Notes under the pieces: generated by a model
Database searches by the model: none
What the model was told of the DNA's origin: nothing
The model's input: only the letters and a program-made list of their open reading frames with translations
Made by a program: the position numbers and the translations under genes
In this document: positions 39,387-62,764 of the stretch, one piece after another
How the letters are laid out: the number at the start of each line of letters is the position of its first letter
How positions within the stretch are numbered: the stretch's first letter is position 1
Source of the DNA: Nostoc sp. FACHB-973
GTDB taxonomy: Bacteria > Cyanobacteriota > Cyanobacteriia > Cyanobacteriales > Nostocaceae
DNA: 64,000 nucleotides
Assembly (NCBI RefSeq): GCF_014698115.1
Contig: NZ_JACJSJ010000023.1
Coordinates: 1 to 64,000, forward strand
Direction of reading: 5' to 3'

Positions 39387-40400
39387 ATGAATGCAGATAT
39401 ATCCGCACTCTGGGACAGAGTTCAGGGAATGATTAACGGATTCATTGTCCTACTGCCGAATATCGTGCTGGCATTGATTGTATTTGCAATCTTCTTCGCG
39501 GTGGCTAGAGCGATTAAGAGAGTAGTTAAACGATTGACTCGCGATCGCCACCAAGCTCGGAATCTAGGACTAGTACTGGGACGCTTGGCGCAAGGCACAA
39601 TACTCTTAATCGGGCTATTTGTGGCTTTGTCAATTGTAATACCGACATTTCGAGCCGGAGATTTGATACAACTACTGGGGATTAGCGGTGTAGCGATCGG
39701 CTTTGCCTTTCGTGACATTCTACAAAACTTCTTGGCTGGGATTCTGATCCTCTTGACAGAGCCGTTCCAAATCAATGACCAAATAGTTTTCAAAGACTTT
39801 GAGGGAACTGTAGAAAATATTGAGACACGAGCGACAACAATTAGAACTTACGATGGTCGCCGTATTGTGATTCCTAACTCAGAATTGTTCACTAATTCGG
39901 TCACTGTGAACACTGCCTTTGACAGTCGCCGACTACAGTATGATGTCGGTATTGGTTACGGCGATGATATAGACCGAGCCAAGGAGTTAATGCTTGAAGC
40001 ATTGCATAATGTGCCGGAAATACTGAAAGATCCTGCTCCTGATGTGCTGCTCATGGAACTTGCCGAAAGTACCGTTAATATCCGCGTTCGTTGGTGGATC
40101 AACCCGCCACGACGTGCAGATGACCTCGCCTCACGGGACAAGGTGCTTTCTACAATTAAGAAAACGTTAGTCGAAAACGGCATCGATTTACCCTTTCCCA
40201 CACAGCAAATTTTATTCCATGACCAGACAGAAGAGACAGATGGCGATCGCTCCCATCAGCGTGAAGGTTGGCCATCTGGTAAAGGCAAAATACCAAAACC
40301 CCGCAACATTGGTGATTCACTCAGGTTACTTGCTCAAGATCGCTCCTCACGAGATGACAACGGTAAGGTAGATTCTCCAAAAGCTAACGATGAAAACTAA
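39387..40400 (+). CDS. MscS-family channel, paralogue A
   Basis: A protein of 337 residues with three membrane helices and an MscS core: GDLIQLLGISGVAIGFAFRDILQNFLAGILILLTEPFQIND (pore helix and beta domain). The C-terminal tail is polar and variable (REGWPSGKGKIPKPR). It is roughly four-fifths identical in protein to the channel at 44068-45075, with the 3' quarter almost identical in DNA as well. A recent duplication or gene conversion is the likely cause. Expected to gate ions and solutes on osmotic downshock. Confidence 0.87.
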   Translation: MNADISALWDRVQGMINGFIVLLPNIVLALIVFAIFFAVARAIKRVVKRLTRDRHQARNLGLVLGRLAQGTILLIGLFVALSIVIPTFRAGDLIQLLGISGVAIGFAFRDILQNFLAGILILLTEPFQINDQIVFKDFEGTVENIETRATTIRTYDGRRIVIPNSELFTNSVTVNTAFDSRRLQYDVGIGYGDDIDRAKELMLEALHNVPEILKDPAPDVLLMELAESTVNIRVRWWINPPRRADDLASRDKVLSTIKKTLVENGIDLPFPTQQILFHDQTEETDGDRSHQREGWPSGKGKIPKPRNIGDSLRLLAQDRSSRDDNGKVDSPKANDEN

Positions 40401-41851: not shown

Positions 41852-43135
41852 ATGCGTCAACTCATTATCCAAGTACCACGGGGAAATGGAAAAGCAGTTA
41901 TTGATATTGCCAAATCTCATAATGGGACAAATCTGGCACGACTTGAAGGAAATGCAGAAGAACCCATTGATGTGGTAATTGTTCACGTTTCTAATCGAGA
42001 AGTTGGGAAAGTTCTAGAGGAATTACAAGACTTTCCCAAAGTACACATCACGCTCATACCAACTGGTGCGATCGCTCTGCAACCACCTGCATCGGAAGCA
42101 GCGCAGCAAGTTGTGGATGTGGAAGAACGCAGTCCGATTGAGATTTTTCTTTCTGGTTTGCAAAGTGTTGGCTCTTGGCAAGGTTTTCTAGGTTATGCAG
42201 CACTTGCAGGTTTTGTAGTCTGGATTGGCTTGTATACTAATACAACTTACTTATTAGTGGCGGCAATGCTGATTGCCCCGTTTGCAGGCCCGGCAATGAA
42301 TACAGCGATCGCAACTGCATGGGGCGATCGCAAACTCTTAGGGCGGAGTATTTTACGATATTTTGCTGCTTTATTAGTCACAATTGCCACCACTTGGCTA
42401 CTTAGCCTAATCTTAAGGCAAGAAATTCCCACTAGTCTAATGCTAGACAGTAGCCAGATTTCAGCAGTGGCAGTGATTTTACCATTGGTAGCCGGAGCCG
42501 CCGGAGCGCTCACCTTGGTTCAGTCAGACCGGAGCAGTTTAGTCTCTGGGGCAGCAACCGGAATGTTAGTCGCCGCTTCCTTAGCTCCACCTGCGGGAAT
42601 TGTCGGTATGGCAAGTGCAATTGGTAGGTGGGATATGGCAATTTCGGGGCTGTTCTTACTGTTTTTGCAACTATGCGGCATCAACTTTTCAGCAGCCCTC
42701 TTGTTCCGAGTTTTCGGGCTGTCTCCTCAAGCAACTCGCTATCAGCGTGGTAAAAAACGGGTATTTACTATTGCTTTGACGATCACTGCTATCGCATTGG
42801 CAGGTTTACTAACTTGGCAGTTTTCCCATTCTCCCAATCTTCAACGCTCTAGCCTTGCCCAACGTGCTAACGCTCAAGTCCAGAAAACTGTAGAGCAAGT
42901 GGGTTTAGCAAAATTAGTCGAGTCGAATGTACGCTTTACACGATCCAACATTGAAGACCAGGATACCCTGCTATCTGTTGTTTATGTGCAGCGTCAACCG
43001 CAAGTTACAGCGTCTAATGAAGAAATAAGCTCTAGGCTCACCCAATCAATTCAGGCTCAATTATTGAAACAGGATTTAAATGTCACACCTTTAGTTGATG
43101 TCAAAGTGCTAGAACCACCTGCTAGTAAACAATAA
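41852..43135 (+). CDS. DUF389 membrane protein (second, with N-terminal soluble domain)
   Basis: A protein of 427 residues with a strong ribosome site (AGGAGG, 5 bases from the ATG). The N-terminal 90 residues are soluble (MRQLIIQVPRGNGKAVIDIAKSHNGTNLARLEG...), a regulatory-looking alpha/beta domain. Several membrane helices follow (about 105-340), with NTTYLLVAAMLIAPFAGPAMNTAIATAWGD as the family core motif. A soluble C-terminal tail ends the protein. It differs from the first DUF389 protein by this N-terminal domain. Its start is the first of the plus-strand run 41.9-47 kb, followed by a channel. Confidence 0.8.
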   Translation: MRQLIIQVPRGNGKAVIDIAKSHNGTNLARLEGNAEEPIDVVIVHVSNREVGKVLEELQDFPKVHITLIPTGAIALQPPASEAAQQVVDVEERSPIEIFLSGLQSVGSWQGFLGYAALAGFVVWIGLYTNTTYLLVAAMLIAPFAGPAMNTAIATAWGDRKLLGRSILRYFAALLVTIATTWLLSLILRQEIPTSLMLDSSQISAVAVILPLVAGAAGALTLVQSDRSSLVSGAATGMLVAASLAPPAGIVGMASAIGRWDMAISGLFLLFLQLCGINFSAALLFRVFGLSPQATRYQRGKKRVFTIALTITAIALAGLLTWQFSHSPNLQRSSLAQRANAQVQKTVEQVGLAKLVESNVRFTRSNIEDQDTLLSVVYVQRQPQVTASNEEISSRLTQSIQAQLLKQDLNVTPLVDVKVLEPPASKQ

Positions 43136-43219: not shown

Positions 43220-44035
43220 ATGAGTAGTCTGAAGCTTTCCCAAAAGCAAGCCCTAGAAAAAGAACGCGGCGAAGTCTTGCAACAGTTAGAAGATTGGCTA
43301 GAAATTCCCATGCTGGTGCTAGGTTTTGTATGGCTAGCACTATTCATCATTGAGATCGTCTGGGGGTTAAACCATTTCCTGGAAGCCGTTAGCATCACTA
43401 TTTGGATTATTTTTATATTAGATTTTCTCCTGAAAGTAGCGATCGCTCCTCATAAAATTTCTTATATCAAAAACAACTGGCTAACAGCTATCTCTCTGAT
43501 GTTGCCAGCATTGCGTAGTTTTCGGATTATACGAGTTATACGGATACTACGAACAACCAGGGCTGTGCGAGGGCTACAACTGTTGCGAGTCATGACTCGT
43601 GCTAACCGAGGAATGCGGGTTTTGGGAGCAAGTATTAGCCGTCGAGGGTTTGGTTATGTTGTGGCATTAACTGCGATCGTTACTATAGTAGGAGCCGCAG
43701 GGATGTATGCATTTGAAAACGAAGTTGCTGATGAATCAGGGCTGCACAACTACAGCACTGCTTTCTGGTGGACAGCAATGCTCATGACAACGATGGGTTC
43801 TGACTATTCGCCCAAAACGCCCGAAGGACGGGTGCTTTGTTTTTTCTTAGCGTTATATGCGTTTGCCGTGTTTGGCTATGTCACTGCAACTTTAGCGACC
43901 TTTTTTATTGGCCGTGATGCCGATGATGATGAAGCAGAGTTAGCTGGAGCGAAATCTATTCAAATGCTTCAGAGTGAAATCGCAGCGTTGCGAGGGGAAA
44001 TTCAAGAATTATTGCATCAAAATTCACAGCGTTGA
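43220..44035 (+). CDS. Voltage-sensor ion channel with non-canonical pore
   Basis: A protein of 271 residues with six membrane segments. S4 carries arginines at 99, 102, 105, 108, 111, 114 and 117, exactly every third residue (RSFRIIRVIRILRTTRAVR), the hallmark of a voltage sensor. The pore loop reads TTMGSDYSP (190-198) where potassium channels have TTVGYGD, so GYG is absent. The ion selectivity is therefore not that of a normal K+ channel. A C-terminal coiled-coil-like tail (about 240-270, with IQMLQSEIAALRGEIQELL) could mediate assembly. The start follows AATTACG repeats and has no ribosome site. The MscS gene follows after 32 bases. Confidence 0.85.
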   Translation: MSSLKLSQKQALEKERGEVLQQLEDWLEIPMLVLGFVWLALFIIEIVWGLNHFLEAVSITIWIIFILDFLLKVAIAPHKISYIKNNWLTAISLMLPALRSFRIIRVIRILRTTRAVRGLQLLRVMTRANRGMRVLGASISRRGFGYVVALTAIVTIVGAAGMYAFENEVADESGLHNYSTAFWWTAMLMTTMGSDYSPKTPEGRVLCFFLALYAFAVFGYVTATLATFFIGRDADDDEAELAGAKSIQMLQSEIAALRGEIQELLHQNSQR

Positions 44036-44067: not shown

Positions 44068-45075
44068 ATGAATGCAGAAATCTCCACCGCTTGGGACAAG
44101 GTTCAAAGCATGATCAATAGTTTCATAGCTTTGCTACCAAACATTGTCTTAGGGTTAATTGTCTTCATCCTCTTTTTGTTTATTGCTAGCAGAATTAAGG
44201 CACTAGTTAAGCGGTTAACTCGCAACCGTCGTTCCGCCCGGAATCTGGGATTAGTGCTGGGAAGGTTAGCGCAGGGGGTGACAGTTTTGATTGGGTTGTT
44301 TATTGCCCTTTCCATTGTGATTCCTACATTTAAAGCTGGTGATTTGATACAACTATTGGGAATAAGCGGTGTTGCAATTGGTTTTGCTTTCCGCGATATT
44401 CTGCAAAACTTCTTAGCTGGGATTTTAATTCTGCTGACTGAACCTTTTCAAATTGACGACCAAATTGTGTTTAAAGGCTTTGAGGGAACAGTTGAAAATA
44501 TCGAGACACGCGCCACAACAATCAGAACTTATGACGGTAGGCGAATTGTGATTCCTAACTCGGAATTATTTACCAATTCTGTCACCGTGAATACTGCCTT
44601 TGACAACCGCCGATTAGAGTATGATGTCGGTATTGGCTACGGCGACGATATTGACCTAGCCAAACAGTTAATGCTAGATGCAATGCATAGCGTCGATGAG
44701 GTTTTAAAAGATCCGGCTCCTGATGTACTAGCAATGGAACTAGCCGGAAGCAGTGTTAATATTCGGGTGCGCTGGTGGGTTCATCCACCACGACGGGCAG
44801 ATAATCTGATTTCGCGGGATAAAGTGATTACTGCTATTAAGAAAAAACTCGTCGCAAATGGCATTGATTTGCCTTTTCCCACACAACAAATTTTATTCCA
44901 CGATCAGACAGAAGAGACAGATGGCGATCGCTCTCGTCAGCGTGAAGGTTGGCCATCTGGTAAAGGGGAAGTACCAAAGCCACGCCGTATTAGCGATACT
45001 CTCAGGTTACTTGCTCAAAAGCAAGATCATGGCAATAGTAAGGTAGATTCTGCAAAGGTCAATAATGAAACATGA
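44068..45075 (+). CDS. MscS-family channel, paralogue B
   Basis: A protein of 335 residues with three membrane helices and the same pore helix and beta domain as the channel at 39387 (GDLIQLLGISGVAIGFAFRDILQNFLAGIL). Its stop overlaps the ATG of the DUF2254 gene (ATGA at 45072-45075), so the two are translationally coupled. It also sits 32 bases after the voltage-sensor channel. Co-translation with a DUF2254 protein is a strong hint that these membrane proteins are made together. The tail ends in a polar stretch with REGWPSGKG like its paralogue. Confidence 0.87.
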   Translation: MNAEISTAWDKVQSMINSFIALLPNIVLGLIVFILFLFIASRIKALVKRLTRNRRSARNLGLVLGRLAQGVTVLIGLFIALSIVIPTFKAGDLIQLLGISGVAIGFAFRDILQNFLAGILILLTEPFQIDDQIVFKGFEGTVENIETRATTIRTYDGRRIVIPNSELFTNSVTVNTAFDNRRLEYDVGIGYGDDIDLAKQLMLDAMHSVDEVLKDPAPDVLAMELAGSSVNIRVRWWVHPPRRADNLISRDKVITAIKKKLVANGIDLPFPTQQILFHDQTEETDGDRSRQREGWPSGKGEVPKPRRISDTLRLLAQKQDHGNSKVDSAKVNNET

Positions 45076-46418
45076 AAAATGTCAAATTGGGCAAACTGTG
45101 GGATACGCTCCACTCAAGTTACTGGTTCATTCCCTCAATTATGGCTATACTTACCACTGCGTTGGCATTCACAATGTTAATGCTCGATCGCACAGGTGAG
45201 GCAAGTATTAGTTATTGGTGGAGCTACACTGGTGGAGCAGATGGAGCGCGATCGGTTTTAGGAGCAGTTGCAGGTTCAATGATTAGCGTTGCTGCTACTG
45301 CCTTTTCAATTACAATCGTAGCGCTTCAGTTAGCTGCTTCCAATTTTGGCCCCCGTCTCCTGCGTAATTTCATGCAGGATACTGGTAATCAACTTGTCCT
45401 TGGCACATTTATTAGTACGTTTATCTACTGCTTGCTGATACTTCGGACTATTCATGGTGAGGGAGATGGATATAGTGAGTTTGTACCGCAAATTTCGGTT
45501 ACGTGCGGTATTTTACTGGCAATTATTAGCATCGGAGTTTTGATTTATTTTATCGATCATGCTTCTACAATAATTCAGGCTTCGCACATCATCGAAAACG
45601 TTAGTGATGACTTAGATAAAGCCATTGATCGCTTGTTTCCCAAAAAAATCGGACGTAGTGGCCCATTCGCACAAGAAATTGCAGAAATACCTGACGATTT
45701 TGACTTGGTTGCAAGTCCTGTAATAGTTAATAAGAATGGTTATATACAAGCAATTGACGACGAAGAATTGATGAAAATTGCCCGCAGAAACAATCTTTTA
45801 TTGCGCGTCGAGTCTCGACCAGGAAAGTTTATTGTTAAGGACAGTCATTTAGTTATGGTTTTTCCTGGTAAATTTGTTAATAAAAAATTAACCAAACAAA
45901 TCAATGATTGTTTTATTTTGGGTAAAGAACGTAGCGAACAGCAAGATATCGAGTTTCCCATCGATCAGTTAGTAGAAATTGCCCTACGTGCGCTTTCTCC
46001 AGGGATTAATGACCCATTTACTGCTATTCGCTGTGTTGATAGACTAGGCGCTGGACTATCCCGTTTAGCCCAAAAAGATTTTCCTTCACCTTACCGCTAC
46101 GATAAAGATCATAAATTACGTGCGATCGCTTTTGGGGTAACATTTGAGGGATTGGTTGATAGTGCCTTTAATGGAATTCGCCAATATGCACGCTCTGATA
46201 CATCAGTAACCATTCGTTTATTAGAAGCGATCGAGAATATTGCAACTTATACCAACAATCCCAAATACCAAGTAGTTTTACAGCGCCATGCAGAGATGAT
46301 TTTGCGCGGCAGCCAAGACGGTTTACCAGAAGAACTAGACCGCCAGGATGTGCAAAAGCAATATGACAATGCAATTCAAACTTTAAAAAATCAGACTTTA
46401 GCTGAAAGAAAAAAATGA
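45072..46418 (+). CDS. DUF2254 membrane protein
   Basis: A protein of 448 residues with about four membrane helices in the first 165 residues (including the family motif GSMISVAATAFSITIVALQLAASNFGPRLLRNFMQD). The large cytoplasmic region has an (E/D)-rich segment (DIEFPIDQLVEIALRALSPGINDPFTAIRCVDRL, about 296-329) that is diagnostic of DUF2254. Function unknown; the fold suggests a membrane-anchored binding or enzymatic domain. It overlaps the MscS stop and the next start by four bases each (ATGA), forming a tightly coupled trio. Confidence 0.83.
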   Translation: MKNVKLGKLWDTLHSSYWFIPSIMAILTTALAFTMLMLDRTGEASISYWWSYTGGADGARSVLGAVAGSMISVAATAFSITIVALQLAASNFGPRLLRNFMQDTGNQLVLGTFISTFIYCLLILRTIHGEGDGYSEFVPQISVTCGILLAIISIGVLIYFIDHASTIIQASHIIENVSDDLDKAIDRLFPKKIGRSGPFAQEIAEIPDDFDLVASPVIVNKNGYIQAIDDEELMKIARRNNLLLRVESRPGKFIVKDSHLVMVFPGKFVNKKLTKQINDCFILGKERSEQQDIEFPIDQLVEIALRALSPGINDPFTAIRCVDRLGAGLSRLAQKDFPSPYRYDKDHKLRAIAFGVTFEGLVDSAFNGIRQYARSDTSVTIRLLEAIENIATYTNNPKYQVVLQRHAEMILRGSQDGLPEELDRQDVQKQYDNAIQTLKNQTLAERKK

Positions 46419-47014
46419 AAAGTCTCAATTGGAAAGGTTATCGAATTATGGCGTGGGTAGGACAAGCTCTATTAACAATTCTTGTCATAGCCGCAGCAGT
46501 TCAAGGTAAATGGACAAATGCCTTTGGTCTTGCAGTCTTCCTGATTGCATCCTTTGTGTTTGTCATTCAAGATGATAAATTACCTACCTTGTTTGATTTT
46601 CTATTTGTCTTGGCTGCATTGCTAAATGCGACTGGTTGGGTATGGGATTTCTTTGGTATGCCAGGCCCTTATGATGAGATTGTTCATGGTTATACTACTT
46701 TTGCAATTACCCTCGCGCTCAGTTTTTTAGTCTATGGTTCAATGCTGAATATATTTCGTAATCATACACTCTTATATCTAGTGACAATTACCAGTTTTGG
46801 AATTGCCATTGGTGCTTTGTGGGAAGTTACAGAATGGTCTGCCGGTAAAATCCTTAATACTCAAGTGATTGAAAGCTTGGATGACACCATTATCGATTTA
46901 ATTATGGACTCTCTTGGAGCAGGATTAGCAGCTTTAATTAGCTTTTGGGGATTACGAAATTGGATAAATCGTAATACAAATGTAAGCAATTCCGAAACTA
47001 AGACATACATTTGA
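46415..47014 (+). CDS. DUF2238 (YjdF-like) membrane protein
   Basis: A protein of 199 residues with six membrane helices. The sequence MPGPYDEIVHGYTTFAITLAL and GALWEVTEWSAG, followed by DDTIIDLIMDSLGAGLAAL, match the DUF2238/YjdF family, whose acidic and histidine residues (DEIVH, E, D) sit within the membrane. The family has no firm function. The ATG overlaps the DUF2254 stop, so it is the last gene of the channel-DUF2254-DUF2238 operon. Confidence 0.78.
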   Translation: MKSLNWKGYRIMAWVGQALLTILVIAAAVQGKWTNAFGLAVFLIASFVFVIQDDKLPTLFDFLFVLAALLNATGWVWDFFGMPGPYDEIVHGYTTFAITLALSFLVYGSMLNIFRNHTLLYLVTITSFGIAIGALWEVTEWSAGKILNTQVIESLDDTIIDLIMDSLGAGLAALISFWGLRNWINRNTNVSNSETKTYI

Positions 47015-61277: not shown

Positions 61278-61913
61278 TTAAGCAGTATTCGGGAGCATTT
61301 TTAAGCATCTGTAAGCAGCAGCAAAAATATGTTTGGAAGGACTTGAGCTACTAATCGCAATTAAAATTCGCCGTGCGCTGACAGTAATCAGCGCTCCGAG
61401 TTTTAATAATTTGGTACGAATAGTTCCGACTTGAGCGGTTTCTAATTCCGTCTTTGCTAAACATTGTGACCGCAATGCATTCATCAAAACGTAAGCTATA
61501 GAAGAGAACCATAAACGTAATTGATTCCCCGCGAATGTGTGGGTACTGGTTCTATCACTAAAAAGTTCCAGTTGTTGTTCCTTAAAGCGATTTTCCATCT
61601 CACCTCTCGGACAATATTTCTGGGTATAAAGTTCACCTGGAGCTATCTTATTCGTAGGAATTGAAGTGACAATAAAACGAATATTAGTCCCCTTTACTCC
61701 ATACTCAACCTTACAAACAACACGACGACTACGACTCCAAGATTCACGGGTTTGATAGTCTAACGACTTATACCAAATTGAGTTATCAATCAAGTCAGAA
61801 CCAAGAGACGGAAGTTGTTCATCTGCCTTAAATACAGTTTCTAAAAATGAAACTACTGTTGATAATTTCTGCTCATACTCAAGCGAGGCTCTATTTTTAG
61901 TCGTGGTAGTCAT
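61278..61913 (-). pseudogene. IS1380 transposase, C-terminal part
   Basis: 211 residues beginning MTTTTKNRASLEYEQKL. It carries the last part of the DDE domain, including PRGEMENRFKEQQLELFSDRTSTHTFAGNQLRLWFSS with the catalytic Glu. Its ATG overlaps the stop of the upstream part (ATGA). In intact relatives the sequence is continuous with the preceding frame, so a small deletion or insertion has split the gene; coupled translation is possible. Confidence 0.75.
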
Positions 61914-62764
61914 CTACCTCGACGACTATTTTGCGCCAATCCAAAAACGTAGTCAACCCCAGTCTGTGACTCACACCATGTCATGATATCGTCTCTGGAA
62001 TAGGCACTATCTGCTCGTACTAAAATTTCGACATTCTGCCATTGTTGACGTATTTGTTTAATGACCCTCTGCAATTCTTCTAACGCCCCAAATGCTGGGT
62101 CTACATTAGAAGGACGTAGTTTGGCTGCCAATAAATGTTTACCACAAAAAATATTTTGTGGAGCGTAACAGTATCCTGCGTAATAAGTATTGAAGAAAAC
62201 TTGCTCCTGATTACCATGTACTAAATCATCAGTTACATCCAAGTCTAAAATAATTTTTCGTGGTTCTTTGTCGTAAGATTCTAGAAATATTTTCACAAAT
62301 AGACTTTCAATTTCTGATGAACAATGTCCAATTTTATGGTAACGGCTATCTGCTCCTTGTTCTACATCTTCAGGACAATGTTCCAGCCGATTTAATGTAC
62401 TTTTCCCGGCCAATTTTGCTGGCTCATTCTCTAATCCAATTCTTTTTTTTAATGCTAAAGCAAACATCGGATCATGACGTAACTCTTCATGGTCGTTTAA
62501 ATCTTCATATCCCATGATTAACCCGTATATCCGTTGTGCAATTAAGCTTTTTATTGGATGCAACATTCGGTTTGCTTGACGGTAATCTTGGAAACATCCT
62601 GCTAATCGTGATGTTATTTGCAGTTTTCGGTCTAGTTCCGCAATTAAGCTTAACCCCGCATCAGATGTTACCTGTCCCCCGTTGAAATTAACTACGACTG
62701 GGGGTGATTTTGGCTGTTCAAATCTGAACTGTTTTGGGAGCGATCGCGAAGCTTGTTGGGTCAT
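61910..62764 (-). pseudogene. IS1380 transposase, N-terminal part
   Basis: 284 residues. N-terminal GGQVTSDAGLSLIAELDRKL and the first two catalytic acids (ILDLDVTDDLVHGNQ and VRADSAYSRDDIM), ending YVFGLAQNSRRGR then stop. The third catalytic Glu is in the other frame, so neither part alone can transpose. ATG start at 62764. Confidence 0.78.

Follow-up and report, generated by a model that had tools for sequence, protein, structure and literature searches.

The relation between the length and chemistry of the selectivity filter and the ion preference of channels with the K+-channel fold has been studied mostly with engineered mutants; deletion of Tyr-Gly from Shaker reportedly abolishes K+ selectivity. 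KvAP has six helices and an Arg-rich S4, in which it resembles the channel described here. Animal CNG channels have the filter TTIGETP, two residues shorter than the GYG type, and CNG channels carry a C-terminal cyclic-nucleotide-binding domain. NaK has two helices and no voltage sensor, and the filter of BacNav and Cav channels is of the TxExW type. The NaK filter (TVGDG) is described as forming only sites S3 and S4, as non-selective and as a model for CNG and HCN channels (PMC8689586, PMC13088309), and CavMr is described as a native prokaryotic Ca2+ channel, related to BacNav, in which a filter Gly is a determinant of Ca2+ selectivity (PMC7041947). Here we compare with these systems a channel gene of Nostoc sp. 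FACHB-973, found in a stretch of 64,000 nucleotides that was analysed as a whole and is referred to below as the window.

The sequence confirms that the open reading frame at 43220-44035 on the plus strand specifies a product of 271 residues (Table 1). Profile scores place this protein in the six-helix channel superfamily: Pfam assigned Ion_trans (PF00520) at 43.5 bits, against a cut-off of 25, and Ion_trans_2 (PF07885), the two-helix pore with its pore helix, at 35 bits, against a cut-off of 22.5. Both domains were found in all 40 family members compared (set A1, Pfam, with Ion_trans taken at E 0.001). A match of the window protein to Lig_chan fell under its Pfam cut-off. PMC2950845 concerns glutamate-receptor-like channels and had no bearing on the protein. 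No NCBIfam family was matched at E 0.001, and at the same E value Pfam gave no cyclic-nucleotide-binding domain in the window protein, in which about 39 residues follow S6. The three other Ion_trans_2 matches in the same genome have filters that read GFG, GYG and GYG, so that filters of the canonical type exist elsewhere in this organism.

Table 1. Features of the channel gene and of its neighbours, in window coordinates.
Feature	Positions	Strand	Basis
Six-helix ion channel gene, 271 aa	43220..44035	+	ORF and Pfam
S2 F65-x-x-D68, Phe and acid	43412..43423	+	F in 87/88, D/E in 84/88 distinct full-length sequences
S3 Thr89, an acid in most relatives outside the clade	43484..43486	+	T in 80/88 distinct sequences, none acidic
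S4, seven Arg at i+3, R99-R117	43514..43570	+	Sequence
Pore helix, filter and post-filter segment, residues 179-204	43754..43831	+	Low column entropy
Selectivity filter TTMGSD	43787..43804	+	Sequence, alignments
S6, residues 205-232	43832..43915	+	Low column entropy
DUF389 / TIGR00341 membrane protein, upstream of channel	41852..43135	+	Pfam, NCBIfam
MscS-type mechanosensitive channel, 32 bp downstream of channel	44068..45075	+	Pfam
DUF2254 membrane protein, start overlaps MscS end by 4 bp	45072..46418	+	Pfam
Small predicted membrane protein, 4 bp overlap with DUF2254; weak DUF2238, below cut-off	46415..47014	+	

The pore loop of the window protein reads AFWWTAMLMTTMGSDYSPKTPEGRVLC, and LMTTMGSDYSP occupies residues 188-198. 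The initial annotation was right in stating that this filter is without GYG, Tyr-Gly being absent from the TTMGSD at 43787-43804. Its description of TTMGSD as a replacement of TTVGYGD needs amendment, in that alignment with KcsA, Kv1.3 and Lmo2059 gives TTMG-SD, with Ser in place of Tyr-Gly; the filter has become shorter by one residue, which a substitution of the same length would not do. Whether the acid in this filter is the equivalent of KcsA Asp80 or of Gly79 hinges on the placement of the gap, and Asp80 is favoured because the post-filter Pro is conserved. A profile of the channel family matched chain 3pjs, which we take to be KcsA, at 6.5e-15, and 6uwm, presumably KvAP, at 2.1e-14 over profile positions 21-228, with a single-residue gap at the filter. 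No K+-selective homologue with the same filter, which the initial annotation had named as evidence against its view, was found among the relatives with solved structures (the best 60 of 237 and the best 60 of 137); their names mark them as K+ channels or as Lmo2059, and in the alignments shown their filter is one residue longer. The AF2 model of the window protein is a weak monomer model (pLDDT 69.4, pTM 0.35, residues 113-139 under 50) from which filter geometry was not taken. Weak support for a K+-channel-type pore comes from its pore half, which aligns with KcsA 5vke with a TM-score of 0.80 by target length and an rmsd of 2.2 A over 96 columns (Foldseek); as a whole the model fits poorly on its best Foldseek hits, Kv4.2 chains, with a query TM-score of about 0.3 and an rmsd >20 A.

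Comparison with the described channels reveals partial likenesses only. The pore domains of the K+ channels KcsA, KvAP and Lmo2059 can be aligned end to end with that of the window channel, and a Trp-Trp pore helix and a Thr-x-Gly start of the filter are common to all of them, but the window filter is one residue shorter and without Tyr-Gly, and the S3 acid has become Thr. NaK likewise is without the Tyr of GYG and has an acid in the outer filter, and the window channel would be expected to keep only the inner sites; however, the NaK filter has K+-channel length, and TVGDG is not found in the window protein. CNG channels also have six helices and a shortened filter that contains an acid and is without Tyr-Gly, but theirs is one residue shorter still, with Glu straight after Gly where the window channel has Ser, and both the filter length and the missing cyclic-nucleotide-binding domain speak against CNG membership. 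In length, the filter of the window family falls between the K+ and CNG types, as these alignments read. CavMr and BacNav are prokaryotic voltage-gated channels that are not K+ channels, and in this they are alike to the window channel, but they differ in pore lineage and filter type, and a T-x-E-x-W motif is absent from the pore loop of the window protein. By its sequence, this protein is an Ion_trans superfamily member that fails to show any of the K+, CNG, NaK and BacNav filter features for which it was searched.

Homologues were collected by scanning one genome per species, which yielded 78 loci, and further loci came from 292 cyanobacterial genomes. From 112 open-frame matches, 90 full-length rows were kept (>50% identity, span >215 query residues); the 22 that were left out consist of fragments and broken copies together with a distant canonical channel (L019, 29%). 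The window's own sequence (L001) is among the 90, as are two identical pairs that two tools had each retrieved, so that 88 sequences are distinct; these are distributed over eight phyla: Cyanobacteria, Pseudomonadota, Thermodesulfobacteriota, Bacteroidota, Acidobacteriota, Chloroflexota, Gemmatimonadota and Deinococcota. Many of the rows are near copies; 34 representatives are left under 82% identity, and 37 close relatives were used for dN/dS.

The filter is short in all 88 distinct full-length sequences, always with the same length and with no insertion in residues 190-200, so it is not a local lesion; a T-x-G-(Y/F)-G filter is missing from the window protein, and GYG or GFG occurs in none of the 88. 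Gly193 and Pro198 are invariant, position 194 is Ser in 87 sequences and Thr in one, and position 195 is acidic in 80 (Glu 42, Asp 38). Among the 90 rows the first Thr, at position 190, is variable (Thr 71, Ala 8, Ile 8, Met 2, Val 1), and position 191 holds Thr in 81 and Ser in 9. As to whether TTMGSD is kept in homologues, a point raised by the initial annotation, it is the short Gly-Ser (once Gly-Thr) type of filter that is kept; the exact letters differ, for example in ITTMGSEYWP and LISLGSEYWP. Length is kept as well in distant plasmid-borne members from Sinorhizobium (TTMGSDFWP, TTIGSDFWP) and Deinococcus (TSLGSEYWP, MSLGPEHWP). The Trp-Trp pore helix and the acid aligned at KcsA Asp80 are largely retained in the family, and the pore-helix positions that we assume to be numbered Glu71 and Thr72 in KcsA hold Met and Leu/Ile/Val/Met.

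The prevalence of the acid at position 195 invites a reading in which the protein would be a voltage-gated channel preferring divalent ions (Ca2+ or Mg2+), with four Asp/Glu by Ser/Gly forming a Ca2+ site and Ca2+ serving as a stress signal. That small filter changes can give Ca2+ selectivity in a prokaryote is illustrated by the filter Gly of CavMr (PMC7041947). We nevertheless regard a divalent-preferring channel as unlikely. Its pore aligns with K+ channels, a filter of the TxExW type is absent, and eight of the 88 sequences are without the acid (Gln 6, Gly 1, Ser 1), so that an acidic ring would not be universal in the family.

Constraint on the pore was estimated in two ways. Mean column entropy in the 34 representatives was lowest, among eleven regions, in S6 (0.67 bits) and in the pore-helix/filter segment (0.69 bits); the values for S4 and S2 were 1.13 and 1.41. 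The median dN/dS was 0.13 (630 of 666 pairs of the 37 close relatives, with dS of 0.2-1.2), and in these relatives dN over whole-gene dS was 0.096 for the pore versus 0.140 for the sensor. The gene is under purifying selection. These results bear on the idea of a non-conducting pore, in which the protein would pass no ions and would signal to its neighbours as a voltage-sensing or regulatory subunit. The best argument for such a silent pore is the SynK filter mutant carrying GAGD for GYGD, which was expressed and gave no current (PMC2853561), and a homologue that has the sensor half but not this pore does exist in Pontibacter. But conservation in the protein is highest in the pore loop and S6, change has been slower in the pore than in the sensor, and the broken copy on a 'Nostoc azollae' plasmid has lost the motif, its filter having decayed to TTMDSNYS, whereas the filter length is unchanged in the 88 full-length sequences, which is what one would expect of a filter in use. 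The gene is dispensable, to judge from the broken copies, yet its pore is constrained where a copy stays intact, which argues against the dead pore that the initial annotation had allowed for; given purifying selection on the gene, we hold a non-conducting protein to be quite improbable. The Pontibacter pamirensis homologue (G293; L113:304-2253, minus strand) is a 650-residue frame in which only the sensor half is recognised (profile positions 4-139, 132.6 bits), followed, as judged by eye, by a long polar region and C-terminal hydrophobic segments; Pfam gave no match at E 0.05, and the same genome also has a full-length copy of the channel.

Full-length and broken copies are both met with in cyanobacteria, where 18 of 292 genomes were positive at E 1e-20, seeds included; 14 of these, the window's genome among them, have a full-length uninterrupted copy and four have broken copies only. 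The corresponding counts, also with seeds included, are at least 2 of 398 genomes in Pseudomonadota, at least 3 of 297 in Acidobacteriota, at least 2 of 296 in Bacteroidota and at least 2 of 201 in Chloroflexota, plus three with related short filters in the last; these figures may be low, as some first-look candidates were passed over in some genomes when the five-phylum searches were scored. Broken or fragmentary cyanobacterial copies were seen at L078, L094-L097, L100, L121, L124 and L179, and at L096 the broken channel lies beside MscS and DUF2254 frames that match those of the window at 90% and 92%. Such copies might suggest that the window gene is itself an artefact, or a K+ channel gene that has degenerated in this one genome. 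We rejected this explanation as scarcely credible: the window copy is intact, with 97% identity to one from Tolypothrix and 59-61% to those of Halomonas/Vreelandella, its relatives are conserved, all 88 sequences have the short filter, and selection on the gene is purifying. On plasmid records the gene is annotated, where a name is given, as 'ion transporter' or 'potassium channel family protein'.

A tree computed without the filter columns separated 45 short-filter rows from 48 with GYG/GFG on one branch with support of 100/99, although its bootstrap had not converged and long branches come together in it. This tree excluded an outgroup with no recognisable filter (L156), four fragments (L136, L137, L141, L142), the sensor-only L113, the family member L143 and the duplicate L002. 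A second tree, of 75 rows, combined 43 of 44 new loci (the fragment L222 was omitted) with rows of the first, namely 18 of its 45 family members and 14 of its 48 outgroup members, and in it 25 short-filter channels formed a clade, with support of 99/98, nested among 48 GYG/GFG rows and two others. Because of this nesting, and because GYG is widespread, the family can be described as derived from a GYG ancestor, with the qualification that neither tree has a certain root. The non-canonical label requires three state changes in the 75-row tree, of which the short filter of the clade is one and L190 and L196, elsewhere in the tree, account for the others; the length-conserved short filter is best explained as one old change. 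Loss of GYG is not unique to the short-filter family. The distant homologues L156, L190 and L196 have filters without it, e.g. MISGEPINFTP and ILGMDYCSPP, those of L190 and L196 being separate losses. Deeper relatives from Chloroflexota that were recovered in the five-phylum searches (L206, L207, L208) belong to the same supported clade, have the same S3 Thr and carry other short filters (TTINTGLEP, TTVGASSEP, TTVGAASEP), but they are without the GS(D/E)Y signature. Because phyla are intermixed in the tree, e.g. Desulfobulbaceae with Halomonadaceae, Marinobacteraceae and Trueperaceae, and some copies are on plasmids, horizontal transfer of the channel gene is suggested.

This ancestry raises the possibility that the channel prefers K+ still, if the leftover Thr-Met-Gly sites suffice for a moderate preference. 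Among the 50 rows outside the clade in the 75-row tree, 48 carry GYG or GFG, and the Trp-Trp pore helix and the acid at the place of KcsA Asp80, as aligned, have largely been kept, which speaks for it. On the other hand, the Tyr-Gly of the outer sites is missing in 88 of 88 sequences, and NaK, with two sites, is non-selective (PMC8689586). Retention of K+ preference is, in our estimation, distinctly unlikely.

The initial annotation's seven arginines at exact three-residue spacing in S4 are indeed present, at positions 99, 102, 105, 108, 111, 114 and 117. The regular spacing stops at R117, and the next basic residues are at 123, 127, 130 and 133. This run is the sole instance in the six frames of the window, and shuffling the residues of the protein 200,000 times gave no such run. 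Position 99 is Arg, and position 102 Arg or Lys, in all 88 distinct sequences. An S4 with Arg at every third residue is thus accompanied by the S2 Phe and acid, F65 and D68, which we take to be those of the charge-transfer centre, as in Kv channels, but the Asp sought in S3, a point on which the initial annotation is silent, is absent. That column, presumably the one that holds the charge-transfer centre acid of Kv channels, has Asp or Glu in none of the 25 short-filter clade rows versus 45 of the 50 other rows of the 75-row set; the 25 clade rows have Thr (22), Ser (1), Ile (1) and Leu (1). A working voltage sensor, one of the options in the initial annotation, has the S4 arginines and the S2 Phe and acid in its favour, but it is less certain than it had seemed because the S3 acid is missing across the clade. 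Voltage gating of the window channel is plausible, and the missing S3 acid may weaken it.

Taken together, the evidence leads us to prefer, with a confidence that we would put at about an even chance, a K+-channel-derived and probably voltage-modulated cation channel of weak selectivity, with a filter resembling those of NaK and CNG channels and an outer acidic ring that binds divalent ions. A pore that is non-selective or differently selective, one of the options offered by the initial annotation, is thus the favoured one, as an interpretation of sequence. Weak selectivity among cations is preferred because NaK is non-selective, because CNG channels and Shaker offer precedents and because the filter is intermediate in length between the K+ and CNG types. 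A point against the NaK/CNG-like interpretation is that the family filter is neither of these, having one residue more than CNG and Ser rather than Asp/Glu after Gly.

According to the weakly selective model, four subunits would form the pore, in which the inner filter sites (Thr/Ser-Met-Gly, equivalent to S3/S4) would remain, and the outer sites for K+ selectivity would have given way to a wider vestibule, ringed in most members by four acidic side chains. Because the outer sites would be replaced by this wider acidic vestibule, Na+ and K+ would pass with little discrimination, and Ca2+ would be bound or passed, as in NaK and CNG channels. The channel would open on depolarisation, with charge transfer altered by the missing S3 acid, and, together with the neighbouring MscS, it would help a cell under osmotic or salt stress to adjust its ions and its membrane potential. 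A broader proposal, which we advance more tentatively and rate at somewhat under an even chance, is that nature would have solved cation selectivity in the K+-channel fold a further time in this family, with a filter (Thr-Met-Gly-Ser-Asp/Glu) whose length falls between those of K+ and CNG channels. The resulting voltage-gated channel, either Ca2+-permeable or of weak cation selectivity, would have evolved from K+ channels independently of BacNav/Cav and NaK, would have a charge-transfer centre free of the S3 acid and, under osmotic stress, would be the electrical counterpart of mechanosensitive channels.

The genes around the channel are relevant to this last suggestion. The channel gene begins 84 bp past the end of the DUF389 gene and stops 32 bp short of MscS, and there are 4 bp overlaps at the junctions of MscS, DUF2254 and the small membrane protein, an arrangement that would fit a transcription unit; scans of the window for promoters and terminators returned no more sites than in shuffled sequence, and the window has no tRNA and no Rfam match at gathering score. 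Linkage was examined at 45 of the 48 cyanobacterial loci from the one-genome-per-species scan (L063, L077 and L078, which are partial or broken, were omitted), with the proviso that the neighbour frames counted may include fragments. Downstream of the channel, 38 of 45 loci have an MscS frame no more than 350 bp away, 34 of 42 have DUF2254 in the next 3 kb and 27 of 41 have the small membrane protein in the next 3.7 kb; upstream, DUF389 frames lie within 400 bp in 30 of 44. A Gloeothece plasmid has the channel amid genes for DUF2254, MscS and TIGR00341, arranged in a different order. At 30 non-cyanobacterial loci the gene is mostly solitary; a DUF2254 homologue was present in the flanks of three, and no homologues of the window's MscS or DUF389 were detected in these flanks (blastp E 1e-8). 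Gene linkage, which is the ground for it, suggests a role in osmotic or ionic stress in cyanobacteria only. No function of DUF389 or DUF2254 was described in the open-access literature found.

The wider surroundings in the window, from 34111 to 59900, form a dense cluster of membrane ion-transport genes, with two DUF389 proteins, three MscS-type channels, DUF2254, two AI-2E-type transporters, DUF3611, a Na+/H+ exchanger and two two-component systems, one of which has a kinase with DUF4118. Two MscS-type paralogues of nearly equal length, at 39387-40400 and 44068-45075, flank the DUF389-channel pair, and a repeat finder reported DNA similarity between them of 66% over 300 bases and 79% over 42. 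A transposase (DDE_Tnp_1_4, 61281-62764, minus strand) consists of two frames with a 4 bp overlap and is apparently broken.

In the open literature searched, which is thin on subscription journals, TTMGSD and its variant filter strings appeared in no channel paper. An account of the short-filter family among cyanobacterial non-selective or Ca2+ channels, or among prokaryotic channels without GYG, was likewise not found in the open literature, as judged from titles and the opening lines of abstracts, nor was electrophysiology of any member. As far as that literature shows, this six-helix family related to K+ channels appears to be uncharacterised. SynK was found with the query T-X-G-[Y/F/L]-G-D (PMC2853561), and a query of this kind misses the short-filter family.

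The window channel is probably a working one, for positive ions other than K+ alone. Its family constitutes a natural series of one-residue-short filters in proteins of about 270 residues from several phyla, and this series has natural neighbours, namely the Chloroflexota channels with other short filters and the canonical channels just outside the clade. With this series one could ask if K+ selectivity disappears along with Tyr-Gly, and if a voltage sensor can do without its S3 acid.
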